Below, in pieces: positions 20,609-48,949 of a stretch of 64,000 bases of DNA. Position numbers and translations under genes: made by a program. The stretch is taken from assembly GCA_011033025.1 (NCBI GenBank), contig WFMF01000003.1:890041-954040 (forward strand), written 5' to 3'. The notes beneath the pieces are model-generated. The model was not told the DNA's origin. It made no database searches and saw only the letters and a list, made by a program, of their open reading frames with translations. This DNA comes from Beroe forskalii (taxonomy: Eukaryota; Ctenophora; Nuda; Beroida; Beroidae). Numbering within the stretch: position 1 is the stretch's first letter; every line of letters starts with the position of its first letter.

Positions 20609-20871
20609 ATGAGCTTCAAGTTAGCTGCCGTCCCTCGGAGAACCTCCATAGCAACTTTCCACGTTGCCCCAAGCAACAGTAGCAACCATGGCTCCCCCTC
20701 GGAGAGTAACAACAACTCCCCCTCGCCCAGCCTCTCCTCCATCTCCTCCCCCCGCAGTGGGCGGCAGAATAGGGGGGCCATGACAAGGGCAGACACTGCC
20801 CCCGTAGGGCTGTCTTTCAGTGGTCCTGCAGCTAGAGACAAGGATGCAGCTTCCTTCCTTGTCATGAACGG
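20609..20871 (+). CDS. Candidate exon A of an unrecognised gene (serine-rich N-terminus)
   Basis: The open segment begins at an ATG with A at -3 and stays open to a strong 5' splice site (CGG|GTGAGA at 20872). It encodes about 87 residues: MSFKLAAVPRRTSIATF, then a stretch rich in S, N and P, then basic RSGRQNRG and LSFSGPAARDKDAASF. A pyrimidine-rich tract and AAG just before the ATG also fit a 3' splice site, so the ATG may be internal. Base composition is GC-richer than the surroundings, as in the other exons. RRTS-type motifs suggest a phosphorylated, disordered region. Exon A ends in phase 2, which does not match the frame of the next candidate exon at 24734, so an exon may lie between. 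I do not recognise the protein. Confidence 0.6.
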
Positions 20872-21240
20872 GTGAGAGATTAATGCAGGGGACATATTAT
20901 AGCTGGATTAGGGTTTAGTAATTAGACGGGTGAGAGATTGATAGAATGCAGGGGACATATATTATACCTGGATTAGGGTTTAGTAATTAGACGGGTGAGA
21001 GATTGATAGAATGCAGGGGACATATATTATAGCTGGATTAGGGTTTAGTAATTAGACGGGTGAGAGATTGATAGAATGCAGGGGACATATATTATAGCTG
21101 GATTGGTTTAGTAATTAGACAGGTGAGAGATTGATAGAATGCAGGGGACATATATTATAGCTGGATTAGGGTTTAGTAATTAGACGGGTGAGAGATTGAT
21201 AGAATGCAGGGGACATATATTATAGCTGGATTAGGGTTTT
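20869..21240. repeat. 65-bp minisatellite starting at the exon A splice donor
   Basis: Five to six units run CGGGTGAGAGATTGATAG, AATGCAGGGGACATATATTA, TAGCTGGATTAGGGTTTAGT, AATTAGA. The first unit begins at the exon's own donor, so every unit carries a copy of the CGG|GTGAGA donor sequence. Confidence 0.95.
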
Positions 21241-21425
21241 GAACACAGAGCGAGGATTGGGTGCTTTCATTCAACCATGGAAGCAAAGTTGTGTTCCACT
21301 TTTAAGGTGATGGGTACCAGGACAGGTTCCAAAGTTAGGTCAAGTGACCAAACCAGGTATCAGGTATACCAACCATTGCTGTTATTCCTGGCCTATATTT
21401 ACTTGCTAATAATAAGCATAACTCT

Positions 21426-21800
21426 ATGTCTATATGTATATCTGGATATGACCTGTCACGTCACAATATCAACTATTTATCCACATCAACTATTCGTTCA
21501 GGTGATTGTAGAAGTCTCATCAATCTAGCCCTTTTAATTATTCTTTTTCTTAAAAACCTGCCAAACCAAAACTTGTCAGTTTATAAATCAATGCACACCA
21601 AATCAAGCATAAGGAAAATAAACGTTTTCAATTTCTGGTATCTCATGTTTATGCGAGACAGCAAAACTAGCATCTTCTACTTAATGACAATTAATATCTT
21701 GTTAATCGTGGTAACGTCACCCTGTATAGTCAACCCAGGCCCTTGTTCAAGGCCTTTAAAAGTTTTCTACAATAATGTACAGGGTTTTGTGAACCCAAAT
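21426..21800 (+). pseudogene. LINE ORF2 N-terminal fragment with NPGP motif
   Basis: The frame runs through a hydrophobic stretch (YLMTINILLIVV) to CIVNPGP (NPGP codons at 21732-21743) and LKVFYNNVQGFVN. In many invertebrate CR1/Jockey-type LINEs the ORF2 N-terminus has the same layout: a hydrophobic helix, D-x-E-x-NPGP (a 2A-like ribosome-skipping peptide) and then the start of the endonuclease (xxxNVQGL). Here NPGP is kept but the acidic D-x-E residues before it are not, so skipping activity is doubtful. The frame breaks at the G-run near 21810, where a dispersed repeat begins. Confidence 0.6.
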
Positions 21801-21804
21801 CACC

Positions 21805-22280
21805 TTAAGGGGGGGGGGGGTTCACCCCTCAGATTTTGGAAAACACGAATTTGAGATATGAGTTGGCAAGGATGGCCAGGGCGTATACCAACATTTTGAC
21901 GGTGGTCTTGAGTCCATAGGTCCAACATTGCCCATGTGAGGCCTCGGAGCAAAAATGGCGTCCAAAAATCGAAATTTTTCCTAATAGAGATAGAGCTTAG
22001 CTTTTGGTTGCATTCGATTCGTCTCGACGAGCTGATCATTTTAGTGTATTTGTTTGTCAAAATCGGATGAAAAATGGCCAAGTTATGCCCATGCGAAGCG
22101 CGCTCGCCAAAGTGGCAGTTGGCCTATTTTGGGCCTTAAGATGGCCATTTTGGCCACATTTTTGGAGATATGAGCTTCAAACTTGTTTTGCCCATCATTT
22201 AGTTCAAAATTGATGGGCAAACCATTGGACCTTATTTGGCCATTTTAGCCCATAAAAACCTTCAAAAATTCACTTAATCG
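21805..22280 (-). repeat. Dispersed repeat, copy 2 (inverted)
   Basis: Reverse complement of 3285-3665. It lies between two pieces of LINE ORF2 coding sequence (21426-21800 and 22485-22630), which suggests it inserted into, or replaced part of, that LINE. Confidence 0.65.
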
Positions 22281-22484
22281 CTTATATCTCAGTTAGCGCT
22301 TTTGCCCAAATTGACTTTACTCTTTTTGCTACTCCTCCGCCATTTTTCAATGTTTCTGCATGAAATTTTCAGAATCGCTTTGAAACTTAATTTCGCACTT
22401 ATGTTATTGACCAAAATTTTCAGTTAGGCCTCCAAAAAATTTTTATGCCCATGAGAGCCAAAATCCCCGGGGATTTTCTGTGAA

Positions 22485-22630
22485 AGTTCTGTGAAAGCAT
22501 TAGCTGAAATCCTGACATTAAATTTCAAACTATCCACAGGGAAAAAGATAAATATTTCAACATTCTATTGTGTTGGTAATCTTGAAAATCTTGAATCGGT
22601 CAAAACTTATCTCACTACCCTGGCCGGTAA
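22485..22630 (+). pseudogene. LINE endonuclease-domain fragment
   Basis: About 48 residues with LTLNFKLSTGKKINISTFY and NLENLESVKTYLTTLA resemble the middle of the APE-type endonuclease of CR1-like LINEs, where a strand such as xISTxYR is followed by a helix before the GDFN motif. It probably belongs to the same insertion as the fragment at 21426-21800. Assignment rests on recalled family patterns over a short stretch. Confidence 0.45.
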
Positions 22631-22631
22631 G

Positions 22632-22745
22632 ATAATAATGTACAACATGAGATACCAGGTTCCTTATAATAATAATAATAATGTACAACATGAGATACCA
22701 GGTTCCTTATAATAATAATAATAATGTACAACATGAGATACCAGG
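22632..22745. repeat. Tandem repeat of about 43 bp, three units
   Basis: Units contain AATGTACAACATGAGATACC, AGGTTCCTTATAATAATAAT. The (AAT)n stretch varies slightly. Confidence 0.9.
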
Positions 22746-23815
22746 TGGTACAAAGGCGGGCAAGTGACGCCCTCATCACAGTTCAGCGTAGTGAATTGTC
22801 ACTCCGTGTGACATACACACGTGGGTTGGAGGGAGTATAGCTGGTGGTGTACAGGCGTCTAAGAACAAAGCGTCATCTGTTTTATGCCCTCGGTTTCTTG
22901 TATAGCAATATAGGTCCAGTTTAGAGTTATTGTTCAATTACATCTACATATGTTTTGCATTATGTTAGTTGTATTTTATATAGTAAGTTATGTATCAAAA
23001 CAGCTCCAAAGCATCGTAGTTTTCTCTCCTGCAGAAGACTCACCTTTAGCTAGAAACTCTATTTGTTGAACTTGAAGCACTGCAGAACGGTTGAGTTTTT
23101 CACGATTTTCATCCGCATTCGTCAGACATGCTGTATGGTGCTTTTTAAGTTGTTAGCTAAGTGGTTTGGGGGAAATCAGGCAATTAGGAGGCTAGACCAC
23201 ACTCCACGACCTATTCCAGCAGCATACAATGCAGTGTAGTGCAATGCGGCACGTGACCGTTCTCCGCTTTTCTAATTGGCCGTGAACCTCATGCGCATCT
23301 CTCATTGGCTGTAACCTCCATTCTTACGATCCACTCATGATTCGTGTTTCCATGTTTTAATGATGTACGGGCTCACGGAGTTTGATAATAAAGGTATTAC
23401 TTCACCGTGATCGAGTTGTTTGATTATATACACGGCCGTGTTGTTTTCGCGCGTGCTGCATACGTATAACCATCACTGATGGAGTTACGAAACCAGAGAT
23501 GGAGTTATATAAACACGCGCGAAAGTCTCTCTCTAGAAACTCCATCAGTAGATTTCAAAAGTCCATCAGTAGATTTCGAAAGTCCATCTCTAGATTTATA
23601 TTCGGATTCAGATACGCTAAATTACCTAATGTTACAAAACTTAATTAAACATGCTTACACTGTTTATTTACCCTGTTTATTTACCCTGTTTAGTGTTTAT
23701 TTACCTTCATTTACCCTGTTTTTACCTGACACGGTTACTGTATTAAGCAAATGTACACATGCACAAAAACGAACACCAAATACCAATCAACACAACACAT
23801 TGCAATTACTGTGTA
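22746..23815. other. Intron 1 sequence, small repeats only
   Basis: No exon supported. A local cluster at 23479-23600 repeats CCATCAGTAGATTTC and CCATCTCTAGATTT. The CACGGCCGTG palindrome at about 23432 recurs in part in the foldback element at 24380. Confidence 0.45.
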
Positions 23816-24238
23816 CATTTGCAAACCGTTATAATATGTTAGACAAGTATGTCACGTGACGTCTGCTCGTAACACAGGTATAGAATGGAATGTGGCTGCT
23901 ATACATTTTTGAGAGTAATTGCAATTGCAAATGTCGATGTACACCATGAGTGGTACCTAGTTCTTTCGTACTCAATTTTGATATTGTACCTACACTTTGT
24001 TTGTTCGGTCCTTCAGTGTTCACATTCCGATGTATTGGTCTGTTGCTGATGATTTACACATTACCAATTATCTAATTATGTTGTACTCGTACAATTATCA
24101 CTCAAATGTGAATGGATTCTTGAGAATGTGAGAATGTGTGTGTCTTTAATATTCACTTCGTGATTGTATCTTTTCCTTTTCGATTTGTTTGTACCATTGA
24201 TTTTGCAAAAGTTTATGGAAATGAACGTTTTGATGGAA
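23816..24238 (+). repeat. Dispersed repeat, copy 2 of the second family
   Basis: Direct copy of 3705-4090. Conserved blocks include TGTGGCTGCTATACATTTTT and TTCAGTGTTCACATTCCGATG. Confidence 0.7.
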
Positions 24239-24379
24239 TCTATGTTTTATGCTGATTGCTGCCTCTTCAAAAAAAGCTTCAAAATACTTAAGTCAATGCA
24301 CAAATGTGAACACTAATATAAATAATTCATAAGGTGTCCTGCTAGGGTCTAAATCTATCCAAATTAAACTTACTGAATC

Positions 24380-24594
24380 GGCCGTGTATATACTATATAA
24401 CCACGCGCCAAAGAGACTTTTATCTTCACATATAGCACTCACTGGCGTTCGTACTATATGAGCAATTAGACACTCACTGCGTTCGCGCCTAATTGTAATT
24501 CACCACGCTGCGCGTGGCGAATTGCAAAAGTCTCCCTCTAGTCGCGTGGTTATATAGTCTATATTTCTCAGTAAACAAACACGGTTTTTACATT
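24380..24594. mobile_element. Foldback/MITE-like element
   Basis: Left arm: GCCGTGTATATACTATATAA, CCACGCGCCAAAGAGACTTTT (24380-24421). The right arm 24527-24594 is its diverged reverse complement (AAAAGTCTCCCTCTAG, CGCGTGGTTATATAGT). The interior includes the short palindrome CCACGCTGCGCGTGG. No coding capacity. Confidence 0.65.
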
Positions 24595-24733
24595 GCGTTT
24601 TACAAAACCAAGAGACTTACTTTGAGACTTTTCCCGCCTCTTCGTTTGCAATTATTTTCGAAAGCAGTTGATAACCAGTGGACTCTTTCGCAGTATTCTG
24701 TTGCCGTCTCCCTACATCGTGTCTCATCAATAG

Positions 24734-24957
24734 GTTCCCAACATTCCTGCAACCATCCCTCTCCAACGGATCCGGACTTCATTCCGCCGTGGGGGCGGCG
24801 CTGGTGATGTCGACGCTTCACTCCGCCGGCCGGCGGCAGCGAGCAGTGAGAATGAGGCGCCAAAGTTCGCCTTCTCTGTGTTCGCTGCGGGAGAAGGCGA
24901 AGGAGTGCTGAGTGGGGAGGAGGGACTGTTTGATAGCGGGAATGAGGAGGAAACAAG
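24734..24957 (+). CDS. Candidate exon B (Gly/Ala then acidic)
   Basis: Acceptor CATCAATAG|GTT and donor AACAAG|GTAATG enclose 224 bases with one frame open throughout. It starts at GTT and ends in phase 2, encoding RRGGGAGDVDASLRRPAAAS and then FAFSVFAAGEGEGVLSGEEG and GNEEET. Its end joins in frame to exon C, which continues the acidic run, so the second half is well supported. Its start needs phase 0, whereas exon A ends in phase 2. The alternative frame fits exon A (FPTFLQPSLSNGSGLHSAVG) but stops at 24909. Either an exon is missing or one base is wrong near the G run at about 24790-24795. Function unknown. Confidence 0.6.
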
Positions 24958-24976
24958 GTAATGTCAGTGAGCGGCC

Positions 24977-25045
24977 ATTGTCAGCACTCTCTGTACATGT
25001 TTATACGATAGCTGATGCACATTGTCAGCACTCTCTGTACATGTT
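24977..25045. repeat. 41-bp duplication just after the exon B donor
   Basis: CATTGTCAGCACTCTCTGTA followed by CATGTT occurs twice, starting about 20 bases into intron 2. Confidence 0.85.
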
Positions 25046-25057
25046 ATTACGTTCATC

Positions 25058-25129
25058 TCCGGTATGGTGTAGGGGCTAGCATCTGTGGCTCTCACCCACA
25101 AGACCCGGGTTCGATTCCCGGTATCGGAA
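25058..25129 (+). tRNA. tRNA-Glu (CUC)
   Basis: A full cloverleaf can be drawn. The acceptor stem is TCCGGTA/TATCGGA with one G-T pair, the anticodon stem TGTGG/CCACA surrounds loop CTCTCAC (anticodon CTC at 25091-25093), and the T stem is CCGGG/CCCGG with loop TTCGATT. A is the discriminator and CCA is not encoded, as expected for a nuclear eukaryotic gene. No intron. A TTTTT Pol III terminator follows at 25132-25136. It sits in intron 2 of the host gene, same strand. Confidence 0.93.
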
Positions 25130-26130
25130 CATTTTTCCAAACATTTTGCTAAGTTATTTACAAATCAAAATCGGCGTGTCTCAGTCAAATGAATAATGAT
25201 TTGGCAATTATCTTTCAATATTGTATTTCATATCAATTTCATATAACTTATGTGTTCTTGAATGCGCGTATATCAGCCGGATAGTTGTGTATTTAGAAAG
25301 AGTAATTCGATACCTTGCAAGGGTTTCTCTCCTGTAAAAGTAATGTAGCATTCACTAAATCACCTTCTGTCACGAGCACATACGGATAACGCCATCAATT
25401 CTCCATTTTAAGCCGTGGAAATGACGTAGCCCTCAGACGCCTCTAGTAATTGCAGCTTCCCCTGGTGAGTGACGCGCGGTGGATATGTGCATGATATTTA
25501 TTATGTGTCACGTGATGGTGATTTGGCTAATTCTATTATGTTAAAGTGACACATCCCGGCCGGCGGATGATGTTTGTGTGTAGGAGTTTGTTTCCCGTTT
25601 AGAGGTGATTGTTCATGTTAAAAACTTAAAAAGTATCGAAACCAAGTATGAATGTTGTGACTTGTGGTATTAAAAAGGGCGTGACTGCTATTAAACCTGT
25701 TACCTGTTGACAATTCCCCATTAAACAGTGATGATACTCAATACTCATCTATAAATAGCATGACTTATTATTGTACACTGTCCATTCACTTGAGTGTACA
25801 GAATAGTACACTAGTCGTGCTGATGTTTAGAATCTTCTTGTTGCCACGTAAACTCATGATGATGACGTCATATGAAGCTACCTACCATCTGCCACGTTGT
25901 GAGAAGAGCTGATGTGTACAAAGAGACTGCATATTGTGTACTTCGAGAGTTTAAAGTTCTAAGTCTACATTCAAAGTGTTATATTTTTCAATCATATGGA
26001 TTCATTCACTACTCCAAGAAATACGTCTAGTATAGCAGATTACGGATACCTTTCACACCTGATGACCATTACATGCCATAATATGTTATTTTATAGACTT
26101 ATATTCGCAAATTACTAAATTGGACATTGC
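25130..26130. other. Intron 2, nothing recognised
   Basis: No repeat, exon or RNA gene is supported apart from the tRNA terminator. Confidence 0.45.
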
Positions 26131-26132
26131 CT

Positions 26133-26350
26133 TCTTAGTTGGTGTAATGGTATTCAGTCCTGCTCGTGATCGAAAGATCCAGGGTTCGATTCCCTGCCAT
26201 TCCCATGACTGAGCTAAGGGTGAAAGATATCTTGGTATCTCAAGCCTATTCAGCCACACAGTTCAGCCAAGCTTACAGGAAACTGTGTGGGAGGGTTAAA
26301 TGAGGAGCTGCCCATTGCAGCGAAGTATCGGGCGAATAAAGTATGGATTA
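26133..26350 (+). mobile_element. tRNA-related SINE candidate
   Basis: The head has an A-box-like TAGTTGGTGTAATGG (26136-26150) and a perfect B box GGTTCGATTCC (26183-26193) inside a T-arm-like hairpin CAGGG/CCCTG. The acceptor and anticodon arms do not fold, so it is not a functional tRNA. A unique body of about 150 bp follows, including CACACAGTTCAGCCAAGC and GGGCGAATAAAGTATGGA. This head-plus-body layout is that of a SINE. Only one copy is seen here, so family status is untested. Confidence 0.55.
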
Positions 26351-27154
26351 CACTTCCTTAACCGTCACTGGCTTAATTACTTGGATTTAACTGTATCACA
26401 CGAACGCCGTACATGAATGCGTGACTCTAAGATTTTGACTAAAAAACTCGACCTGTTTAAAATCCATCGGTTTTATTTGGTTTACTAGAGTCGTAATCAG
26501 CACTCCTCACTCAAGCTAGTTTTCCCACGTGCGGTATAATAGTAGGTTTTCTCTGCCCTCGGAGGAGCTGGCTATGTTGTTTGGTGAGGATAAAGCCAAT
26601 TTCAATAATTTGGGTAGATCTACTTTCTTCATCGGAGAAGCAGTCCCCACCAAAGTTACTGCTCAAGGGTGTGTATAAAGTGTGGCATTTTGAATCTAAT
26701 CATGATGATTTCGCCCAAAAATTGAGCAAAAGCATCTCTGAGCAAAAAGAAACAATTGCATAGTAAACCGATTTTCTCATAATCGCCATTACCCATTATG
26801 TCTAGAGAGTAACTCATTCATCAGCCAAAAGTCCTTACAATTATAGCTATTTTACAACAATTTAAATTACAATGGATGGATCATCACTCATTCCTTCGCA
26901 AGATGTAATGCAGTGCATTATAGATCTAATACGTGTTTCTCTCTGTCCATGAGTCTCAGGCTACTTAGGGGGAATTCGAATTCTATGTGATTTGGTAGTT
27001 TTAAAGGTAATAGTTGTATGGGAAGGAAGAAGCTGAAACTATTCGAAATTAAAGAATACTTCATGGTTCAATGGCGCAAGATACATTGCATTTTGTGTGC
27101 ATCAAATTTACGTTTTGTCCAACGATGTTGGACACTAACCCCTTATTATTTCAG
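26351..27154. other. End of intron 2
   Basis: Unique AT-rich sequence ending in a good acceptor (CTTATTATTTCAG at 27142-27154). The 5' part of an open frame starting near 27018 is intronic. Confidence 0.5.
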
Positions 27155-27211
27155 TGACGAGGAAGAGGGAACTCACGTGACAGCAGAGGATTTCGAGACC
27201 AACTCAGACCG
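27155..27211 (+). CDS. Candidate exon C (acidic, 19 codons)
   Basis: Flanked by TATTTCAG| and |GTTAGT. Joined to exon B in phase 2 it gives S at the junction and continues DEEEGTHVTAEDFETNSD, extending the acidic GNEEET of exon B. Both ends are phase 2, so the exon is symmetric. The sensible continuation across the junction is the best evidence that B and C are real. Exon C ends in phase 2, matching exon D. Confidence 0.75.
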
Positions 27212-28226
27212 GTTAGTGCGTCACCCCCCCACTCCCCCATCCCCATCACTTCATCCCCGCCCCCCAGTACGTTACTTCCCCGGTCACTCCCCCCCTCACC
27301 TCCCCATCACTCCCCGGTCACTTCACCCCGTCACTTTCCTCCCCCGCCACTCCCCCTCCCGTCACTTCCCTGCCGTCAATTCCCCTTTACCCCCCCCTCA
27401 CCTACCCTATCACCCCCCGGTCACTTCCCCCCCCAGCACGTTACTTCCCCGCCACCCCCTCCCTCCCGTTACTTCCCCATCACCCCCCTCCGGGCACTTC
27501 ACCCCCCAAAGCACGTTACTTCCCCCGCCACTCCCCCCTCCTCGTTACTTCTCCCCGCCCCCCCTCCCCCGCCCGTTACTTCCCCGCCACTCCCCCTCCC
27601 TCCCGTTACTTCACCCCTCCCCCCCTCCCTCCCCCCGCCCTCCCCCTCCCTCCGTGACTTCCCCCGCCACCCCCACCCCCTCCCTCCCTCCCTCCCCGCC
27701 ACTCCCTCCCTCCCTCCCCAGCCCTCCCCGTCCCTCCCTCCCTCCCTCGCCACTCCCCTCCCTCCCTCCCCTCCCCGCCACTCCCCCTCCCTCCGTGACT
27801 TCCCCGCCACCCCCTCCCTCCCGTGACTTCCCCCGCCACTCCCCCCCTCCTCCCCTCCCTCCCGCCCTCCCTCTCCTCCCCTCCCTCCCCAGCCACTCCC
27901 CGTCCTCCCTCCCCTCCCTCGCCACTCCCTCCCTCCTCCCTCCCCGCCACTCCCCCTCCCTCCCGTGACTTCCCCCCGCCACCCCCTCCCTCCCGTGACT
28001 TCCCCGCCACTCCCCCCTCCCTCCCCCGCCACTCCCCTCCCTCCGTGACTTCCCCTCACCTCCCCATCACCCCCCAGCACGTTAATTCCCCGCCACTCCC
28101 CCTCCTCCGTTACTCCCCCCCCTCCCCTCCCCGCCACTCCCCGACAACCCCCAGCACGTTACTTCCCCCGGTCACCCAAACCCCCCCCGCCACGTCACTT
28201 CCTACCCGTCACTCCCCCCCACGTAG
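27212..28226. repeat. Intron 3: 1-kb polypyrimidine minisatellite from the donor onward
   Basis: Nearly the whole intron is C/T on the + strand, built of degenerate units such as CCGTTACTTCCCCGCCACTC and CCTCCCTCCGTGACTTCCCC. It begins a few bases after the donor and runs to the acceptor ACGTAG. Long frames on both strands here (Pro/Ser-rich on +, Gly/Arg-rich on -) come from this composition and are not genes. The G-rich strand could form quadruplexes. Confidence 0.9.
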
Positions 28227-28313
28227 AGAAGACAGTGTGAGACAGTGGGAAGGTAGCTCCTTGTACTATTTGAGGAGTAGATCAGATAGCGGGGTGTACA
28301 AGTGCCCAGTCGC
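28227..28313 (+). CDS. Candidate exon D (29 codons)
   Basis: Acceptor CCCACGTAG| and donor CGC|GTGAGT. In phase 2 after exon C it reads REDSVRQWEGSSLYYLRSRS, then DSGVYKCPVA. It is symmetric (2-2) and rich in serine and arginine, continuing the disordered style. The donor is close to consensus. The next candidate exon at 36019 would need phase 1, so direct D-E splicing does not keep the frame. An 11-base segment at 28575-28585 after a good TTTTCAG would correct the phase, but a microexon that short cannot be trusted by eye. Confidence 0.7.
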
Positions 28314-28639
28314 GTGAGTGGGCCGTCTTTTGGAGAGTGCAGGCATTCAATAGTGGTTTTAGTGGTTTGAGCATGCGTTTGCATATTATATCCTTCCAGA
28401 TTACAAATCAAAGCACATTCATTGAAATGGGAGTGTGTGTGTGTTGTGGTGGTTATGGTTTGCAATAAAGCTTCACTGACCATTGAGTTTTAAATTTGAT
28501 TTTTTGTTCTTCTGAAAACAACGTAGGGACTTCTCTGCATGGTTTGAAAGTAGATAGAGTTTGATTTTCAGTAACCATCTAGGTATTTGATGGCATTTAT
28601 TACTTAAATTATGCTTCAGCAAAAGCGCTCTTTGCATAA
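28314..28639. other. Start of intron 4
   Basis: No repeat begins at this donor, unlike introns 1, 3 and 7. A GTGTGTGTG run lies near 28433-28443. Confidence 0.5.
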
Positions 28640-31173
28640 TCGCTGATGAGTGACTAGGCGCTGATGAGTGACTAGGCGCTGATGAGTAACTAGGCGCTGA
28701 TAAGTGACTAGGCGCTGATGAGTAACTAGGCGCTGATAAGTGACTAGGCGCTGATAGCACGATAAGTGACTAGGCGCTGATAAGTGACTAGGCGCTGATG
28801 AGTGACTAGGCGCTGATAAGTGACTAGGCGCTGATGAGTGACTAGGCGCTGATAAGTGACTAGGCGCTGATGAATGACTAGGCGCTGATGAATGACTAGG
28901 CGCTGATGAATGAGCGCTGATGGTGACTAGGCGCTGATAAGTGACTAGGCGCTGATGAGTAAGTGACTAGGCGCTGATGGTGACTAGGCGCTGATGGGTG
29001 ACTAGGCGCTGATAAGTGACTAGGCGCTGATGAGTGACTAGGCGCTGATGAGTGACTAGGCGCTGATGAGTGACTAGGCGCTGATGAGTGACTAGGCGCT
29101 GATAAGTGACTAGGCGCTGATGAGTGACTAGGCGCTGATAAGTGACTAGGCGCTGATGAGTGACTAGGCACTGATAAGTGACTAGGCGCTGATAAGTGAC
29201 TAGGCGCTGATAAGTGACTAGGTGCTGATAAGTGACTAGGCGCTGATAAGTGACTAGGTGCTGATAAGTGACTAGGCGCTGATGAATGACTAGGCGCTGA
29301 TGAATGACTAGGCGCTGATAAGTGACTAGGCGCTGATGAATGACTAGGCGCTGATGAGTGACTAGGCGCTGATAAGTGACTAGGCGCTGATGGGTGACTA
29401 GGCGCTGATGAGTGACTAGGCGCTGATGAGTGACTAGGTGCTGATAGGTGACTAGGCGCTGATAAGTGACTAGGTGCTGATAAGTGACTAGGCGCTGATG
29501 AATGACTAGGCGCTGATGGGTGACTAGGCACTGATAAGTGACTAGGCGCTGATGAGTGACTAGACGCTGATGAGTGACTAGACGCTGACGAGTGACTAGG
29601 CGCTGATGAGTGACTAGGCGCTGATAAGTGACTAGGCGCTGACGAGTGACTAGGCGCTGATGGGTGACTAGGCGCTGATGAATGACTAGGCGCTGATAAG
29701 TGACTAGGCGCTGATAAGTGACTAGGCGCTGATGAGTGACTAGGCACTGATGGTTGACTAGGCGCTGATGGGTGACTAGGCACTGATAAGTGACTAGGCG
29801 CTGATAAGTGACTAGGCGCTGATGAGTGACTAGGCGCTGATGGGTGACTATGCGCTGATAAGTGACTAGGCGCTGACGAGTGACTAGGCGCTGATGACTA
29901 GGCGCTGATGAGTGACTAGGCGCTAACTGATAAGTGACTAGGCGCTGATAAGTGACTAGGCGCTGATGAGTGACTAGGCACTGATGGGTGACTAGGCGCT
30001 GATAAGTGACTAGGCGCTGATGAGTGACTAGGCGCTGATGAATGACTAGGCGCTGATGAGTGACTAGGCGCTGATGAGTGACTAGGTGCTGATGGGTGAC
30101 TAGGTACTGATGGGTGACTAGGCGCTGATGAGTGACTAGGTGCTGATGAATGACTAGGCGCTGATGGGTGACTAGGCGCTGATAAGTGACTAGGTGCTGA
30201 TAAGTGACTAGGCGCTGATGAATGACTAGGCGCTGATGAATGACTAGGCGCTGATGGGTGACTAGGCGCTGATAAGTGACTAGGTGCTGATAAGTGACTA
30301 GGCGCTGATGAATGACTAGGCGCTGATGGGTGACTAGGCACTGATAAGTGACTAGGCGCTGATGAGTGACTAGACGCTGATGAGTGACTAGACGCTGACG
30401 AGTGACTAGGCGCTGACGAGTGACTAGGCGCTGACGAGTGACTAGGCGCTGATGGGTGACTAGGCGCTGATGAATGACTAGGCGCTGATGAGTGACTAGG
30501 CGCTGATAAGTGACTAGGCGCTGATAAGTGACTAGGCGCTGATGAGTGACTAGGCACTGATGGTTGACTAGGCGCTGATGGGTGACTAGGCACTGATAAG
30601 TGACTAGGCGCTGACGAGTGACTAGGCGCTGATGGGTGACTAGGCGCTGATGAATGACTAGGCGCTGATGAGTGACTAGGCGCTGATGAGTGACTAGGCG
30701 CTGATAAGTGACTAGGCGCTGATGAGTGACTAGGCGCTGATGGGTGACTATGCGCTGATAAGTGACTAGGCGCTGACGAGTGACTAGGCGCTGATGAGTG
30801 ACTAGGCGCTGATAAGTGACTAGGCGCTGATAAGTGACTAGGCGCTGATAAGTGACTAGGCGCTGATGAGTGACTAGGCGCTGATAAGTGACTAGGCGCT
30901 GATAAGTGACTAGGCGCTGATAAGTGACTAGGCGCTGATGAGTGACTAGGCACTGATGGGTGACTAGGCGCTGATAAGTGACTAGGCGCTGATGAGTGAC
31001 TAGGCGCTGATGAGTGACTAGGCGCTGATGAGTGACTAGGTGCTGATGAGTGACTAGGCACTGATAAGTGACTAGGCGCTGATGAGTGACTAGGCGCTGA
31101 TGAATGACTAGGCGCTGATGAGTGACTAGGCGCTGATGAGTGACTAGGCGCTGATGAGTGACTACTGACTAGG
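28640..31173. repeat. 18-bp minisatellite, array 1
   Basis: About 140 copies of CTGATGAGTGACTAGGCG with common GATAAG, GATGGG, GACGAG and GGTGCT variants. Because 18 is divisible by three, long minus-strand frames appear (repeated SAPSHS/SAPSHL). They lack a non-repetitive start or end and are treated as by-products. Higher-order blocks repeat, for example the variant order around 29540-29760 recurs around 30330-30600. Confidence 0.96.
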
Positions 31174-32515
31174 CGAGTTCAGAGAAAGTGACCTTGATTG
31201 CTTCCTCAATGTCCTATATCCGAGGGATGGGCATTTCAGCCAATGATCTTCTACAACTATTGGCATTTCAGCCAATGATCTTCTACAACTATTGGATTAA
31301 GGAATCTCCATGGTTCTATTTATCACAGTAGTATTTACCATTGGTCCGAAGGCTCAGATATATCCACTTCCTACAGAGCTACACATTTCTTGTGTTCTCT
31401 TTCATCTAACATGGCATTCAATATCTTTCAAAATGTTCAATTTTTCATCTCTTCGTGCACTATTCATATATTAATTATTTTCTTAAGTTGAAACCTGAAT
31501 ACTACTTCATTCCACTGAAAATATACACGGAAAATACCCCCGGTGGGTACATTAACAATCATCATTAAATGAAGGAATATCAACTCAATGGGTGGAAGCG
31601 CTCTATTTTGTGGCTCGCAGAATGTATAACAGAATATTAACCGCTTGATTACCTGCCACCAAGTAGCTTCCCCCCTTCCTTCATGGCAACATGTGACAAC
31701 TCAGAGTATTTCGTGACGACTACAATATACTATTATACCGAGTTTGACAACCACTTTATATACTATTAATTTAGGATTCCGCCACTTGTAAAGTTGTAAT
31801 TTCTCACTTTGAGTTGTCCTTGATATTTCAATGGTGACTGTCGTTGGTTTAATGGCTTTTAGTTTTGTAACTAAGATGAAGTGGGAGAAATACGTCAGCC
31901 GATAGGCGTTAACTTTTAATCTTGACTGCTAATATTTTTGTTCAAATGTTTGTTTTATGAAAACTCGTTTGGAATGCTTCAAGCCCAACATAGATCAAAC
32001 CTCCACCTTTGAGACGTGTGTCAACACGTCCCTCAGCTAAATTTTACAGCACTTTGTAAGACCCGTTCTAGACAGGGAGTTTTAGGAGCAAGCCTGTCTA
32101 GAATGGGGTTTTTCGCTTGCCCGAGCTATTGCTCGAGCAATAGCTTGGGTAATAGTTGAAGGTATTACCCGAGCAATTGTCCATCAAAGTGGCATTATGC
32201 AGCTTTCTGGCGTATCTTTAAACTGTCATCTGAATATTTATCACTCTTAGAGATACCTTGTTATCAATTTTAAATGCACAGGAAAGTGTCTTATCATCAA
32301 AAAATAGTGTTATTGCTACAATAGGCGTATACATAGCAACATTATTACCTAAAGGTGCAGAACGAACCCTGTGCGGGTTTATTCTATTTTATGTGGCATT
32401 AGCGCGTTCATGTTTTAATTCATGTTTTGTCATCAAGTTAATGTTTTATTGTGTTTTTAAAGTTTTCAGTATTTCTACTATCCCTGTTTAGTAAGGCGTT
32501 GCTTTTGCAGGAATT
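31174..32515. repeat. Segmental duplication with 57834-58822 and 61741-62100, copy 1
   Basis: After the 18-bp array, AGTTCAGAGAAAGTGACC onward matches the flank of the second 18-bp array at 57836. The match runs to about 32172, then jumps to sequence equal to 61741-62100, ending at GCTTTTGCAGGAAT in both. About 35 bp (GGCATTTCAGCCAATGATCT...) is tandemly doubled at 31228-31295 only in this copy. Open frames do not survive between copies. Confidence 0.9.
32059..32172. mobile_element. Truncated left end of the TIR element seen whole at 58698-61555
   Basis: Begins AGACCCGTTCTAGACAGGG and includes GCTATTGCTCGAGCAATAGC palindromes as at 58698. It stops at ...GAGCAATTG and continues directly with the sequence that flanks the full element on the right, so about 2.9 kb is missing here. 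Confidence 0.7.
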
Positions 32516-36018: not shown

Positions 36019-36400
36019 CTCCTACTTCGCCCATGTCTTGGAAAAAGCCCGCATTCCGGGGGCACCGGAGATGCTCCTCCATAGGGAGTCCTCTGGATCA
36101 GCGCATAGTGCTGCCGCCCCACCCACCCAACTCGCTCAGCAGGAGCAACAACTCCAGCTGCGAGCAAGGCCTGGACAAGGACCGGGGTCTCAAGATGCTC
36201 GCTGGCACTTTGCTCGGCTCCCGGGCCATGATGGCTCACGGCCTGATAGTTGGGTATTCGGCCAATGAGAATGAGACTGGAGGAGGAGAGGTTGAGAGAA
36301 GGAACTCTTTGGGTGGGTCCTCTCCAGCTGCAAATGTGGGGAAGTCCCTCTCCATGTCTCATTTGTCTTCGGGATGGGACAATGCGGCTGGTGTGTTGCT
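36019..36400 (+). CDS. Candidate exon E (127 codons, Ser/Arg-rich)
   Basis: The largest exon, open throughout between ATCATCAG| and TTGCT|GTGAGT. It encodes SPMSWKKPAFRGHRRCSSIG, PLDQRIVLPPHPPNSLSRSN, then LKMLAGTLLGSRAMMAHGLI and ERRNSLGGSSPAANVGKSLS. RRCSS and RRNS look like basophilic-kinase or 14-3-3-type sites, and a short hydrophobic helix (LAGTLLGSRAMMAHGLIVG) lies in the middle. It starts in phase 1 and ends in phase 2; the end fits exon F. Two other frames are partly open, but only this one joins F. Protein not recognised. Confidence 0.72.
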
Positions 36401-36521
36401 GTGAGTGTGAGGGGCTCGTGGATTTGGTGCTGCTTTGAAAGAGTGTTTTGAACCAAAGTATTTTAGCATTTAGCCGTTGTAACCATTTGAGTTATGACCA
36501 ATTTTATTTTACCCTAAGGAG

Positions 36522-37524
36522 CCATCTATGAAGGACGTCCGCTAAAGGGGGACCTGTTCAATGCGGACGTTTGTGGACATAGGGTAGGAGGTGTTTGATC
36601 AAATGCGGACGTCCACAGTTTACTTAAATTTTGGTCGATTTCAAGGATATTTCGGTAAATTGAGCGATCCGTCTAGGCCAGTATCGTGCCAGTATCACGC
36701 CAGTACCACACCAGTATCGCGCCAGTATCAGGCCTACCTCACGCCGTTATTGCGCCAGTATCGCGCCAGTAGCACGCTTGTATCAGGCCAGTACCACGGC
36801 AGTATCGCGCCCATATCAGGCCTACCTCACTCCGTTATCGCGCCAGTATCACGCCAGTAGTGCGCCAGTAGCACGCCAGTAGCACGCCAGTCGAAACTAA
36901 CTTAAAGCCAGGACGCCAGTATCAGATCATATACTGGCGTTGTGATATTTAGAGTGGAAGAATACCGGAACCCGTACCCAGAACCAAGGGAGAGTCAGTT
37001 TTCAAAGGAGTAAAGAACCATCTAGCCTAGGAAGGAAGAGTATGTTGAGTATATATTCTGATATAAGGGAAGGTTATATTCACGGGGGAATAACTATATC
37101 AAAGTAAAGGGATATAAGGGGAAATATATTAATCTGAATAATAATATAATATAATAATAAAAACGGATATCAACAGGCGTGTTACTGGCGTCCTGGCTTT
37201 AAGTTTGTTTCGACTGGTTTGATACTGGCGTGATACTGGCGTGATATTGGCGCCATAGTGGCGTTATACTGGCGCGATAACCACGTGAGGTAGGCCTGAT
37301 ACTGGCACGATACGCCAGTATCGCGCCAGACGGATCGCTCAATTTACCGATATTTCACTAAAAAATCGTGAAATTTCGGGCCCGAAAGGTTTTCAAGAAA
37401 AATTTGGACGTCCGGGGGAATCAGGGATTTCTAAATTGCGGACGTTTGCCGACAAGGGGGGAGAGAGAGGTCTAAAATGGCCGAAATTTTGCGGACGACC
37501 TTTATGGACGACCTTTATGGATGT
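36522..37524. mobile_element. Nested foldback element with CCAGTATCGCG repeats in its arms
   Basis: Outer arms: CCATCTATGAAGGACGTCCG at the left faces the inverted CCATAAAGGTCGTCCGC at the right. Inner arms: 36655-36921 and 37183-37350 are inverted copies (GTAAATTGAGCGATCCGTCT ... AACTTAAAGCCAGGACGCCA). The left inner arm is built of degenerate 12-mers GCCAGTATCGC/GCCAGTAGCACG. The loop, about 36922-37182, is AT-rich and unique. No coding capacity. It lies wholly in intron 5. Confidence 0.75.
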
Positions 37525-37563
37525 CTTCATTCTCTGACAGATCTTACAAAACGTGCAATTCAG

Positions 37564-37666
37564 GGCTGACAGTGCGTCTAACATCAGCACAGATCCAGTG
37601 CAAGAGAACATCAGCAAACTGAGGGATGATTACGCCAACCTCCTTAGGGAAGTGGAAAACTTGCGG
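37564..37666 (+). CDS. Candidate exon F (coiled-coil start)
   Basis: Acceptor GCAATTCAG|G completes the CT of exon E as Leu, and the donor is TTGCGG|GTAAGT. It encodes ADSASNISTD, then PVQENISKLRDDYANLLREV and ENLR with heptad-like spacing of I/L/Y/L/V/L, suggesting a coiled coil. A second AG (TCTGACAG at 37533-37540) would give a longer in-frame piece but not the right phase with exon E. It ends in phase 0, matching exon G. Protein identity is unknown. Confidence 0.75.
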
Positions 37667-37710
37667 GTAAGTTGCCTGAAGTGTTGTATCTCCTTTCTTA
37701 TCTCCTACCT
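37661..37710. repeat. Exon F donor region, copy 1 of a 50-bp direct repeat
   Basis: CTTGCGGGTAAGTTGC and the following CTGAAGTGTTGTATCTCC recur at 39371-39430 with small changes, so the last exon bases and the donor are present twice. Confidence 0.8.
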
Positions 37711-38308
37711 TATTGGCCTTTATTTAGCCGGCCTTTTTTAACCTGCCTTTTTTCAACCAGCCCTATGGACAAAAATTGGATCAGTTTTGAACCGTTTTAA
37801 CCGGCCCCTTGGATAAAAATTTTTCAGGAGGTTGCCAGAACAAGGATTTTTTGCTCTGAAATGACCTCTAAAACCCTTTTATACTTGATAAATTGCATCA
37901 AAAGACCCAAATCCCGGTCTGATATTATGATTTAGGTCGTTATTCGTGTTATGTATTATGACGTTCCAGAGAATTTTACACTAGAAATAGAAATAGTTCA
38001 TTACAGTCAGATTACAGAAATAACGTAATGTCAGACCGAAAACCTTCTACTGGAAAATCCCCGAAATGTTTCAAAGATAAGAATGATTAAGAAGTGTATG
38101 CAAAACTAGAGGTCCTAAATTCTAAAGCCAAGAAATACTGAAGTTAAAAAGGTAGAAAAGGATGGAATCTCAACTTAAATGAGGCCAAGGAACTAAAATG
38201 CTTGAAGTGTCTACTAAAAAGTGGAAATAAAGTTCCTGAGCCATATCCAATAAAGAAAAGTGTATAGAAGTCACAGTCAGGATTGTCACAAAAATGTAAT
38301 TTCACTTG

Positions 38309-39220
38309 CTAATAAACTGTTGTATTAGTTTTTGACTTATGGATGTTGATTTGAGGAGGATCTTCCGGAAACCGGATCTTCATCAGTCCATGCACATATC
38401 GGGAGAAAGGCACCATGAGGTCTTTGTCAAAGAGTTCCTTCAGACGCAGTGGCTCCCACGACAGAAGTGCTGACTTGACATGTTCCAGTAGTGCAAGCCG
38501 TGGGGTGTTGTAGAGAGGGCAGGTGACAAGAAAATGCTGCTCGTCTTCAATGATTGGATCGAAGAATGGGAGGTTGGCAAGCCCTTCTGCATCGTTGTCA
38601 GAGCAAGCTTTGCAGGCCTTTCTCCAGGCCTTTGGCTGGGTGTCTGCTCCTTGGGAGAAATACCTTCCGGTTTCGCCACAGAGCCGGTGGTTACTTGCTC
38701 TAAGTTTGGCCATGCCTTTCTTTCTATCATATTCTCTGATATTTAGATAGTCTTCAAAGAGAAACTCATGCTTAACCATGGCATAGAACCTCAGCTTGTT
38801 GTAGAGCGGAACTGCTGATTTCCATAGGGATATGAATTGTTCTCTTAGCAGTTGACGACCACGTGAAGGCATGATGTCATAGGTCATTCCAAGGGCATTT
38901 CTGAGTGCTTGAAGTCGAGCATACCAATTCAGAGAAAGCTGCTGCTGTTCAATGTAAGCATTTCCAGCCATGGTCTCGGTAGCACTGAGTGAGAGCGATT
39001 CGAGCCTAACCACATAGTCTAATGCTTGCTTGATTGCAGTAGTTGCCAGGGGAAATCTCCCAGTGTCTCCCCAGCAGACTGCATTTGTTGCTTTAGATGA
39101 TAGGCCTAGGGTCCATTTAAGGAACTTAAGGTGTATGTTCTCAAAAGGATCATTAGATATCTTGGTTATCGATGTTCTTGGGTCTGTATCAAGGGCATTG
39201 TTTGCCACTATATAAGCCAA
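38309..39220 (-). pseudogene. LINE reverse-transcriptase C-terminal domain, uninterrupted
   Basis: Read on the minus strand, about 300 residues without a stop. They match the region after the palm in a distinct group of invertebrate LINEs: HLKFLKWTLGLSSKATN, WGDTGRFPLATTAIKQALDY, a helical middle, then NHRLCGETGRYF, CKAC and EDEQHFLVTCPLYNTPR, a C-x2-C ... H-x4-C zinc-like pattern near the end. It ends in TAG at 38327-38329, followed by a short 3' tail. The catalytic palm is not present upstream within the insert, as in a 5'-truncated insertion. Its intact frame suggests a young copy. It sits in intron 6, antisense to the host gene. Confidence 0.82.
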
Positions 39221-39370
39221 GGCATAAAAGTTTCATTTAATCTAAATTAACTGGCCTTTAATTTGACCAGCCCCACTTTAACCGGCCTTTTTTTAACCGG
39301 CCCTTTGGACAAAAATTTCAAAGTCGTTTTGTCATTAAGGGCCGGTTAAATAAGGCCATTAAGGCAGTTT

Positions 39371-39430
39371 CCTTGCGGGTAAGTTGCTTACCTGAAGTGT
39401 GGTATCTCCTTCAATTCCTTATCTCCTAGT
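39371..39430. repeat. Exon F donor region, copy 2
   Basis: Second copy of CTTGCGG|GTAAGTTGC with CTGAAGTGTGGTATCTCC. Both copies are bordered by AACCGGCC-rich sequence and bracket the 1.66-kb segment holding the antisense LINE tail. Confidence 0.8.
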
Positions 39431-39545
39431 TACTTCAAAGTTCAACTTCAAGTCCCTAGGTGCTTTTTGTTACAAAAAAGCTGGCCATTGAAGTGACTTT
39501 GCGGCCGTTTTAACAGTCGCGTTGTTTCTCATATCGAAGGTTTAA

Positions 39546-40940
39546 AATGGGGGGTTCAAGCCAAATTTTTGAAAACATGTTTTTGAGATAATGGTCGACC
39601 CTATAAAGGTATGCCCCGTGGGCCAACTTTTTAGCCGGGCTTGGTACTCCTCAGACCCACTGGCGTCGCCGTGGGGCTGGCGCCAAAAGTGGGTGCACTT
39701 TTCAAAAACTATTTGGACGGGATCTGAGGTGTTCAATCGATAGATAATGGTCCCCTGAATTACCTTATCAATTTTGAAGTCGATTTATCAAGAAATGATC
39801 GAGTTATGGCCGAAATAAGTATGTCCATATATGTCGACCTATTTTTGTTTTTTGTTTTTTTGTCAAGATAAATGTTGTTTCCTGAAAAAACAAAAACAAA
39901 ACCAAGAAAATACAAAACATAAAAAAATACAAAAAAAACAAAAAACAACAGAAAAAAATTCAAAAAACAATAACATAAAAAACAAAAAACATGAAAACCA
40001 AAAAATACGAAAAATATGAAGGGGAAGTCGGTTTGTGCCATTCACGTCGATGAGTTGTAGAAATTTATCAGAAATACGTCAATGTTTAAACATTAAACAT
40101 TGTTTTCTCTTATGTGAGCTCGAACTGACAAAATGAATGTGAAGATGGATTTTCCACACTTAATTCAGCAGAAGGTTACTACGCCAACCTTAATAACTTG
40201 ATAGTATCAATATTTCCTCTTTAATTTGGTTTTTCAATCTATTTTGCATTTTTGTATTTCATGTTTTTTGTTTATGTTTATGTTTTTGTTTCTTGTATTT
40301 TTTGTTTTTTTTTTGTTTTTTATGTTTTATATGTTATGTTTTTTTTTGTTTTTTATGTTTTGTATTTTTTGTTATTTATGTTTTGTATTTTTTTGTTTTT
40401 TTGTTGAGGTGAATGTGGTTTTTTGAAAAACAAAAAAACAAAAACAAAAACAAAAACAAAAAAATTTGTCGGCCACCCCCAAGTTTTGGGCTGATTGCTG
40501 CTTAAGTGGCGATTTGAGGTTCAAATAAACCTCTAAAAAACCACAAAATCGCTTTTTCTCAGGTTGCGTTTTTTCAAAAGTACACTCTATTTAACGGCTA
40601 ATAACTTCAGCTACGATCGATATTTTTGCACAAAATAGACTAAATTCCGCAGAAACAAATGGAGCCGGATTTTTGAATTAGGGCTTTTTCGGCCATAAGT
40701 CGGCCATTTCTCGAGATATCGACTTTAAATTTTTTGTGGTAGCTCACGGGACCATAATATTTATCTATCGATTGCACACCTCAGATCACGTCCATGTCGC
40801 TTTTAAAAAATACACTCATTTTTGGGTGCACTTTTGGGTCTGGAGAGTGGAGGTACCAAACCCGGCCAAAAAGTTGGCCCACTGAGTATACCTTTTGGGT
40901 CAACCATTACCTTTGAAACGTGTTTTCCACCCCCCCTATT
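39546..40940. mobile_element. Foldback element with arms of about 210 bp
   Basis: 39546-39760 and 40730-40940 are inverted copies. Both carry, in one orientation, a G-run end, GTGGGCCAACTTTTT, CCGGG-TTGGTAC, GTGCACTTTT and GATCTGAGGTGT-CAATCGA. The interior holds an A-rich run (39870-40015) facing a T-rich run (40285-40415), which also pair. No transposase. It lies in intron 6. Confidence 0.82.
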
Positions 40941-41072
40941 ACAAGTAAAGAACAAAAACACCGCTGCGGACCAACACAACGAAATCACTTTTTATTATGG
41001 TTTTGGGAAAATTTTATCTCTGAATCTCTTACATCTGATTGTCTAAATCTCTCATTCTCTAATGCTGTTCAG

Positions 41073-41216
41073 GAAACTTACAAGGAAAGCCTCTCCCAAC
41101 TCACCTCAAGTCTGGAGAAGCAGCGAGAGTACTTCGTGGCTGCACTCCAGGACAACACGCTCCGGATCAGACAAATAGACGACCGGGTGGACGACAAACT
41201 CGACCAGTTCCAGTGG
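41073..41216 (+). CDS. Candidate exon G (coiled coil, 48 codons)
   Basis: Acceptor ATGCTGTTCAG| and phase 0 fit exon F. It encodes ETYKESLSQLTSSLEKQREY, then FVAALQDNTLRIRQID and DRVDDKLDQFQW, continuing the heptad pattern of exon F, so F+G give one coiled coil of about 75 residues. The end is uncertain. A weak donor TGG|GTTGAG coincides with the start of a 22-bp minisatellite; read on, the frame ends four codons later at TGA in that repeat. No later exon was found in the remaining 22 kb, so either this is the last coding exon or the next lies beyond the window. Confidence 0.72.
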
Positions 41217-43427
41217 GTTGAGATTTGAGATATTACAGTTGGAGATTTGAACTATTAGGGTTGGAGATTTGATATATTAGAGTTAGAGATTTGAGATATT
41301 AGGGTTGAAGATTTGAGATATTAGAGTTGAAGATTTGAGATATTAGATTTGAAGATTTGAGATATTAGAGTTGGAGATTTGAGATATTAGAGTTGGAGAT
41401 TTGAGATATTAGGGTTGAAGATTTGAGATATTAGAGTTGGAGATTTGAGATATTAGGGTTGAAGATTTGAGATATTAGAGTTGAAGATTTGAGATATTAG
41501 ATTTGAAGATTTGAGATATTAGAGTTGAAGATATGGGATATTAGAGTTGGAGATTTGAGATATTAGGGTTGAAGATTTGAGATATTAGAGTTGAAGATTT
41601 GAGATATTAGGGTTGAAGATTTGAGATATTAGAGTTGGAGATTTGAGATATTAGAGTTGGAGATTTGAGATATTAGGGTTGAAGATTTGAGATATTAGAG
41701 TTGGAGATTTGAGATATTAGGGTTGAAGATTTGAGATATTAGAGTTGGAGATTTGAGATATTAGAGTTGGAGATTTGAGATATTAGGGTTGATTTGAGAT
41801 ATTAGAGTTGGAGATTTGAGATATTAGGGTTGAAGATTTGAGATATTAGAGTTGGAGATTTGAGATATTAGAGTTGGAGATTTGAGATATTAGAGTTGGA
41901 GATTTGAGATATTAGGGTTGGAGATTTGAGATATTAGAGTTGGAGATTTGAGATATTAGAGTTGAAGATTTGAGATATTAGGGTTGGAGATTTGAGATAT
42001 TAGAGTTGAAGATTTGAGATATTAGGGTTGGAGATTTGAGATATTAGAGTTGGAGATTTGAGATATTAGAGTTGGAGATTTGAGATATTAGAGTTGGAGA
42101 TTTGAGATATTAGAGTTGGAGATTTGAGATATTAGAGTTGGAGATTTGAGATATTAGAGTTGGAGATTTGAGATATTAGGGTTGGAGATTTGAGATATTA
42201 GAGTTGGAGATTTGAGATATTAGAGTTGGAGATTTGAGATATTAGAGTTGGAGATTTGAGATATTAGAGTTGGAGATTTGAGATATTAGAGTTGAAGATT
42301 TGAGATATTAGAGTTGGAGATTTGAGATATTAGAGTTGGAGATTTGAGATATTAGGGTTGAAGATTTGAGATATTAGAGTTGGAGATTTGAGATATTAGA
42401 GTTGAAGATTTGAGATATTAGAGTTGAAGATTTGAGATATTAGAGTTGGAGATTTGAGATATTAGATTTGGAGATTTGAGATATTAGATTTGGAGATTTG
42501 AGATATTAGAGTTGGAGATTTGAGATATTAGAGTTGAAGATTTGAGATATTAGAGTTGAAGATTTGAGATATTAGGGTTGGAGATTTGAGATATTAGAGT
42601 TGAAGATTTGAGATATTAGAGTTTGAGATTTGACATATTAGGGTTGGAGATTTGGGATATTAGGGTTTGAGATTTGAGATATTAGAGTTGGAGATTTGAG
42701 ATATTAGAGTTGGAGATTTGAGATATTAGAGTTGGAGATTTGAGATATTATTAGAGTTTAGAGTTTGAGATTTGAGATATAGAGTTGGAGATTTGAGAAG
42801 AGATATTAGAGTTTGAGATTTGAGATATTAGAGTTGGAGATTTGAGATATTAGAGTTGGAGATTTGAGATATTAGAGTTGGAGATTTGAGATATTAGAGT
42901 TGAAGATTTGAGATATTAGAGTTGAAGATTTGAGATATTAGGGTTGGAGATTTGAGATATTAGAGTTGAAGATTTGAGATATTAGAGTTGAAGATTTGAG
43001 ATATTAGAGTTGGAGATTTGAGATATTAGAGTTGGAGATTTGAGATATTAGATTTGGAGATTTGAGATATTAGAGTTGAAGATTTGAGATATTAGAGTTG
43101 GAGATTTGGGATATTAGAGTTGGAGATTTGAGATATTAGAGTTTGAGATTTGAGATATTAGAGTTGGAGATTTGAGATATTAGAGTTGGAGATTTGAGAT
43201 ATTAGAGTTGGAGATTTGAGATATTAGAGTTGGAGATTTGAGATATTAGAGTTTGAGATTTGAGATATTAGAGTTGGAGATTTGAGATATTAGAGTTTGA
43301 GATATTAGAGTTTGAGATTTGAGATATTAGAGTTGGAGATTTGAGATATTAGAGTTTGAGATATTAGAGTTTGAGATTTGAGATATTAGAGTTGGAGATT
43401 TGAGATATTAGAGTTGGAGATTTGAGA
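41217..43427. repeat. 22-bp minisatellite, block 1
   Basis: About 100 units of GTTGGAGATTTGAGATATTA + GA with GAAGAT and GGGTT variants. It starts exactly at the end of exon G. It continues on the far side of each LTR element (48447-48949 and 53895-54484), so the elements sit inside one former array. Confidence 0.96.
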
Positions 43428-43601
43428 TATCGGAAGGAAACGACGATATAGATCATGAAATAGTAACTTCCTATAAATAACAGGGTTAGAACAATATCAT
43501 CAAAATAAAAGTATGAATACATCATGAGGTAATAATATATAAGTAACCTAGAGGAGAGGGGTAACACCGAAGTAATATAAGGTACTTAATATCCCCTGAT
43601 A
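43428..43601 (-). repeat. 3' LTR of Gypsy copy 1
   Basis: 174 bp, ends TATC...GATA rather than TG...CA. Carries the left-type bases shared with the LTR at 48950 (for example CAAAATAAAAG and AATACATCATGAGG). Confidence 0.9.
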
Positions 43602-48249: not shown

Positions 48250-48272
48250 TTTTAGATGATTTGAGGAAGTTA

Positions 48273-48446: not shown

Positions 48447-48949
48447 GAGATATTAGAGCTGGAGATTTGAGATATTAGAGTTGGAGATTTGAGATATTAG
48501 AGTTGGAAATTTGAGATATTAGAGTTTGACATATTAGAGTTTGAGATTTGAGATATCAGAGTTGGAAATTTGAGATATTAGAGTTGGAGATTTGAGATAT
48601 TAGAGCTGGAGATTTGAGATATTAGAGTTGGAGATTTGAGATATTAGAGTTGGAAATTTGAGATATTAGAGCTGGAGATTTGAGATATAAGAGTTGGAGA
48701 TTTGAGATATTAGATTTGAAGATTTGAGATATTAGAGTTGGAGATTTGAGATATAAGAGTTGGAGATTTGAGATATTAGATTTGAAGATTTGAGATATTA
48801 GAGTTGAAGATTTGAGATATTAGAGTTGGAGATTTGAGATATTAGAGTTTGAGATTTGAGATATTAGAGTTTGAGATTTGAGATATTGGAGTTGGAGATT
48901 TGACATATTAGAGTTGGAGATTTGGGATATTAGAGTTGGAGATTTGAGA
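48447..48949. repeat. 22-bp minisatellite, block 2
   Basis: Between the two Gypsy copies. Its unit variants (GAGCTGGAGA, GAGTTTGACATATTAGAG, GATATCAGAG) occur in the same order at 53895-54120 after copy 2. Confidence 0.95.

Follow-up and report, generated by a model that had tools for sequence, protein, structure and literature searches.

Tandem arrays copy exon-intron borders in kinesin, myosin and one unnamed gene of the ctenophore Beroe forskalii

In the genome of Beroe forskalii, short tandem repeats copy exon-intron junctions in a sizeable minority of the introns sampled. Arrays spanning a border are of both the donor and the acceptor type and were found at the donor of exon A of an unnamed gene and in 12 introns of kinesin and myosin genes. 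We consider it probable that these border arrays are "mirages" of the kind known from amphioxus, i.e., that tandem duplication is rampant and is filtered by selection, with the copy on the exon side staying intact.

Results

Exons of the window gene

The window (the whole stretch of DNA that was analysed, 64,000 bases, i.e., bases 890041-954040 of contig C358 in an assembly of 216 Mb) contains a gene for which seven exons had been proposed in a sequence-only reading. On the plus strand between 20 and 42 kb the coding potential has peaks at exons A, B, C, E, F and G, and the peaks end within 6 bases of the donors, while exon D gave no peak at the threshold used. The exons are as follows:

20609..20871, plus strand, exon A: coding-potential segment 20606-20872, score 29.6; donor score 8.1; 3' end in phase 2, next to the repeated donor
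24734..24957, plus strand, exon B: coding segment 24791-24958; a long open frame begins in phase 0
27155..27211, plus strand, exon C: coding segment 27153-27212; phase 2 joins to B and D, by hand
28227..28313, plus strand, probable exon D: open frame, phase by hand; weak donor, none above 3
36019..36400, plus strand, exon E: coding segment 36042-36395
37564..37666, plus strand, exon F: coding segment 37550-37660; ends at donor TGCGG/GTAAGT, score 9.9
41073..41212, plus strand, exon G: coding segment 41064-41207

With phases assigned by hand, the joins B-C, C-D, E-F and F-G are in phase and the frame is broken at A-B (2 to 0) and D-E (2 to 1). Since the frame of exon B starts in phase 0, it has no direct join to exon A. 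On the minus strand, an open frame over exon A (20575-20865) has a higher coding score than exon A itself (38.7 vs 29.6). Most of the proposed exons hold up, with gaps left in the gene model. TMCC (PF10267) was considered as the identity of the coiled-coil part in exons F and G and rejected, as the resemblance is weak (E 0.006, below the cut-off); a search of the genome for this family gave no match, and the gene was left unnamed.

Three other features were observed in this part of the contig. The 5' flank of the gene (20045-20507) has a copy 8 kb upstream at 11948-12388 with 93% identity, intron 2 contains a tRNA match at 25058-25129 (RF00005, 56 bits), and a reverse transcriptase fragment (PF00078) is located at 1254-1643.

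Arrays at the donors of the window gene

The repeats that lie at or near the donors of this gene were located with TRF and by eye, and donors were scored with a splice matrix trained on kinesin introns of the same genome:

20868..21239, plus strand, 65-bp minisatellite over the exon A donor: TRF 20882-21239, 5.6 copies; context read by eye; six donor copies
27212..28226, plus strand, intron after exon C with pyrimidine-rich repeat: TRF rows between 27289 and 28132, from +77
39372..39428, plus strand, duplicate of the exon F donor: 57 bases at 82% to 37660-37707, including seven bases of exon and the adjoining intron
41215..43430, plus strand, 22-bp minisatellite at the exon G donor: TRF 41220-43430, 100.6 copies; first unit start 41215 by eye
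48447..48952, plus strand, 22-bp array resumed between the LTR element copies: TRF and element ends
53895..54483, plus strand, continuation of the 22-bp array: TRF

At exon A the array repeats the donor, as had been claimed. The 65-bp unit includes the last four bases of the exon (ACGG; ACAG in the copy at 21123), and the donor copies at 20872, 20930, 20995, 21060, 21123 and 21188 reach scores of 8.1, 8.1, 8.1, 8.1, 10.6 and 8.1, so that donor-like sites are indeed multiplied. The 22-bp array reported at exon G is also present, to within a few bases: it begins 2-7 bases from the donor, depending on the choice of donor and array start. The donor of this exon is ambiguous, with a score of 6.2 at 41213 and below 3 for GTTGAG at 41217, the site chosen in the sequence-only reading. 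The second donor copy described for intron 6 was recovered at 39379. Its score of 9.9 equals that of the original exon F donor, from which it is separated by 1.7 kb including an inserted stretch with inverted ends (37705-37736 / 39337-39367, 84%).

Two further repeats had been described less accurately. A pyrimidine repeat does occupy most of the 1-kb intron after exon C; however, by TRF it starts at +77 and not at the donor, and no donor copy was found in it (TRF 27289-28132 in the intron 27212-28226). The doubling in intron 2, behind exon B, lies some 20 bases in as stated, but about 26 bases of it are visible in the sequence instead of 41 bp, and it is not among the TRF output. In the window gene border-spanning repeats were seen at donors only.

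Two copies of one LTR element (43431-48446 and 48953-53894, minus strand, 95% alike) interrupt the 22-bp array, both lying within it. In the first copy the end repeats measure 171 bp (96.5%), and its open frames match RVT_1, RNase H, rve and protease. In addition, the window contains two 18-bp arrays (28641-32514 and 54484-62100) with flanks that are 91-93% identical, the second copy being interrupted by about 2.9 kb. A mobile element was rejected as their source, as the flank was found just twice, both times inside the window, which points to a local duplication.

Elsewhere in the genome, 104 homeodomain matches were counted. COX1 is located on a 13.3-kb contig, where TGA is read as Trp; AGA occurs at three positions that we take to be conserved Arg and ATA at several that are presumably Ile, so that it reads best with these two meanings. 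No tRNA was found in 2.8 kb searched with the bacterial code. This mitochondrial code and the number of homeodomains are consistent with a ctenophore.

Arrays at exon borders of kinesin and myosin genes

Kinesin and myosin exons of the same genome, found by homology, served as a sample. A subset of the matched genes was fetched, about 167 kb besides the initial loci, and introns were placed by a home-made spliced profile alignment, giving 133 introns in 24 stretches. The 110 predicted kinesin introns were reduced to 94 by merging across exons shorter than 40 bases, and 39 introns were added, hand-picked for consistent joins from 69 rows (many of them repeated between profiles) before TRF was run on those stretches. 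Arrays with a period below 9 or a score below 60 were excluded from the counts.

An array is present at a border in 18/133 introns, with 10 donor and 10 acceptor contacts. In 12 introns the array reaches or crosses the border, at six donors and at six acceptors. In the kinesin gene of L051 the unit contains 42 exon bases, which encode LSLVDLAGSERAAK of the motor, and 45 intronic copies precede the acceptor. The unit in K212 includes 24 exon bases before the donor, and here the array spans nearly the entire intron. Exon bases are likewise part of the unit in L050 (18 bases; donor array with a 45-bp unit, TRF 22 copies), in J240 (17 bases; donor array with a 49-bp unit), in L047 (31 bases) and at the acceptor of M225 (23-bp unit). 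The M225 locus (L060 and L061, reverse complement) also contains, at 3897-4376, two adjoining alternative copies of a myosin exon that are perhaps mutually exclusive.

In most border arrays the units differ among themselves (TRF matches 67-100%). In the kinesin and myosin sample 12.1% of intron bases lie in arrays, vs 1.8% of exon bases, a difference that fits free formation of arrays and their purging in exons. The intron value is close to the 13% of tandem repeats given for the genome of the ctenophore Hormiphora (PMC8527503).

Border contacts compared with chance

Contacts were compared with a null in which each array is randomly relocated within the intron that holds it and may extend into the exon by at most one unit or 60 bases, whichever is less. 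For the 133 introns 20 border contacts were counted vs 11.5 expected (P about 0.001), an approximately 1.7-fold excess, and 12 spanning arrays vs 6.8 expected (P 0.017). The excess is seen in introns of more than 600 bases (spanning 7 vs 1.7, P 0.0006; contacts 9 vs 3.2, P 0.001), whereas introns up to 600 bases show no significant excess (contacts 11 vs 8.3, P 0.12; spanning 5 vs 5.1). When the C897 gene is left out, 15 contacts vs 10 (P 0.025) and 8 spanning arrays vs 5.9 (P 0.19) remain. The six added stretches alone give no significant excess (contacts 6 vs 4.0, P 0.12; spanning 3 vs 2.4, P 0.42), and neither does the window gene alone with intron 7 excluded (1 contact vs 0.74 expected).

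A point test was applied to the 22 bases centred on each border, which were counted as recurring if at least 18/22 matched nearby; 77/110 donors and 86/110 acceptors entered it. No enrichment was found, with recurrence at 4/77 donors and 3/86 acceptors. Random intron positions recur more often than borders (10.7% downstream and 8.7% upstream, n=1380), and exon interiors do not recur at all (0/630).

These numbers bear on two claims of the sequence-only reading. Chance placement had been called unlikely; contacts exceed chance moderately, and the claim was overstated given the share of sampled intron bases that lie in arrays anyway. An origin linked to the donor is not supported, as acceptors are contacted as often as donors and, in the 22-base test, borders are repeated less than random intron. 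The observation itself was largely right and its donor-specific interpretation was not.

A pure filter model predicts no excess, so that the observed contacts count against it. Alternatively, exon borders could be true hotspots of tandem duplication, e.g., via breaks coupled to transcription or splicing. The overall contact excess speaks for such hotspots, as do the 4-fold excess of spanning arrays in introns above 600 bases and the nearby duplications at 4/7 donors of the window gene (A, B, F and G), a gene that had been picked for them. However, shorter introns lack a significant excess, the point test ranks borders below intron interiors, and dilution of long, unmasked introns by transposons could produce the excess seen there. 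The border excess is modest and may stem from this dilution, and we regard hotspots as an improbable alternative.

Arrays in paralogous kinesin genes

The 56-bp array of L051 is absent from its paralogue L057; the intron before the exon is present in both. Conversely, L057 has a 58-bp acceptor array at 1-1154 with about 20 units, each containing about 40 kinesin exon bases (it lies outside the modelled introns and is uncounted in the statistics), and L050 has no array reaching the border that corresponds to it. These differences between paralogues indicate that an array can be gained or lost while the intron itself persists.

In L057 the intron before the exon without the L051 array has its donor displaced into a partial copy: at 2490-2990 the predicted donor lies within a copy of the start of the next exon, with CTAAGCCTG before the donor and CTAAGTCTG after the acceptor. 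In this one paralogue pair, the predicted splice sites would be compatible with a possible sliding of the intron that adds three codons.

Decoy splice sites and reading frames

The copies of the border that lie in introns keep their splice signals. The splice dinucleotide is preserved in 99/102 aligned intronic copies from seven border-spanning arrays; ten arrays were aligned and seven pooled (left out were both arrays of the window and the one at the L050 donor, 7630), and the local alignments clip unit ends. Conservation of the splice site is intermediate within the unit, with 19/35 to 52/54 positions at least as conserved, and gives no sign of selection for or against decoys. Some decoys match the score of the real site, and it is exceeded by the copy at 21123 (10.6 vs 8.1) and by copies in K212 and L051.

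At 5/6 donors placed by homology an in-frame stop follows within 41 bases past the border, and at 4/6 acceptors one is found within 42 bases upstream. In the window gene, reading on past the donor reaches a stop after 1 base at exon A, 13 bases at G and 72 bases at F; splicing from a later copy at A or G would therefore yield a truncated protein. At the acceptor array of L050 (unit of 30 bases) the 400 bases read upstream contain no in-frame stop, so that extra copies could be used here without truncation and could add ten residues per 30-base copy. Judged from the reading frames, the copy that is spliced is presumably the one on the exon side.

Intact decoys that in some cases outscore the real site, and an acceptor array that could lengthen the protein, might suggest that the arrays serve splicing, the surplus donors or acceptors influencing which site is chosen or titrating factors. 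Against this, conservation within the unit does not peak at the splice dinucleotides, alternative use would bring a stop at most borders examined, and the compared paralogue does without the same array. On these sequence features a function in splicing appears highly unlikely.

Assembly and mobile elements as sources

It is very improbable that the arrays are an assembly artefact or a product of wrong exon borders. The out-of-phase joins A-B and D-E, the higher score of the minus-strand frame over exon A and paired homeodomain matches, which suggest some duplicated haplotypes in the assembly, would fit such an error; however, the kinesin and myosin borders rest on conserved protein sequence, and the units in most border arrays differ from one another.

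A derivation from mobile elements, introner-like or transposon-borne, is scarcely credible: a dispersed repeat starts exactly at the end of the 65-bp array (21239; 78-79% to contig C714) and the LTR element copies sit inside the 22-bp array, but three copies of the dispersed repeat (L002, L003 and L005) run on upstream without the 65-bp array, and units elsewhere copy local exon and intron. A transposon origin of the 65-bp array was rejected on the former ground. None of 42 matches outside the window covers this array, in a search that skips simple repeats. The 22-bp unit of exon G has 115 matches in the genome at up to 3 mismatches, and among the matches listed all are in the window's part of C358.

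Discussion

Border arrays as filtered duplications

Tandem duplication filtered by selection is the reading that best joins these observations. Its observed elements are border-spanning arrays at borders placed by homology, their presence at donors and acceptors, the scarcity of arrays in exons, the intact decoys and the difference between two paralogues. According to this reading, a short tandem duplication would arise over a donor or an acceptor. The copy attached to the exon would preserve the coding sequence and the splice site, and the remaining copies would turn into intron; with the exon-side copy intact and the others intronic, the change should be nearly neutral. The array could then expand or contract by slippage or unequal exchange. 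Selection would purge arrays within exons, so that the surviving arrays would stop right at the exon borders on either side of an intron, and the spliceosome is presumed to take the exon-side copy, i.e., the first donor or the last acceptor.

A further-reaching version appears doubtful to us: border minisatellites would occur throughout the genome and turn over fast in a lineage that branched off early in animal evolution, would be seeded with a preference for splice borders, and would offer a route for moving introns, as if the upstream exon in L057 had captured one array unit. Near-identical competing sites provide a natural test of the choice of the exon-side copy by the spliceosome, and of scanning vs exon definition for acceptors. 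Likewise, arrays specific to one paralogue suggest a way, open to test, in which introns could slide and new intron positions arise.

Comparison with known systems

Titles and abstract openings of the ctenophore papers listed do not mention border arrays. The resemblance to amphioxus genes noted in the sequence-only reading is borne out by the mirages, minisatellite-like tandem duplications of 5' and 3' exon-intron borders with many copies that carry AG/GT signals (PMC3087553, PMC3902484). Mirages are described for globin genes, Adh3 and others (PMC3087553) and for PGBD5 (PMC3902484), with units of 10-72 bases in Adh3 and 150-160 bases in globins (PMC3087553), and it is suggested that they leave regular splicing undisturbed (PMC3087553, PMC3902484). 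The arrays of B. forskalii share with them the border-spanning units, the occurrence at donors as well as acceptors and the AG/GT kept in nearly all copies. They differ in that many of the sampled genes are affected, with up to 45 intronic copies. The repeat behind exon C is unlike mirages, as no donor copy was found in it.

Intron gain by tandem genomic duplication, as outlined in PMC4974935, is similar in that splice sites arise from tandem duplication; in the one pair compared, L051 and L057, the intron is present in both genes and the array in L051 only, with the L057 donor displaced into a partial copy. Introner-like elements, as summarized in PMC4457414, also link a repeated sequence to introns; here, in contrast, the units are local border copies and no single dispersed family, as far as tested with the 22-bp and 65-bp units. 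In the sample from this ctenophore, the phenomenon known from single amphioxus genes extends to roughly one intron in seven.
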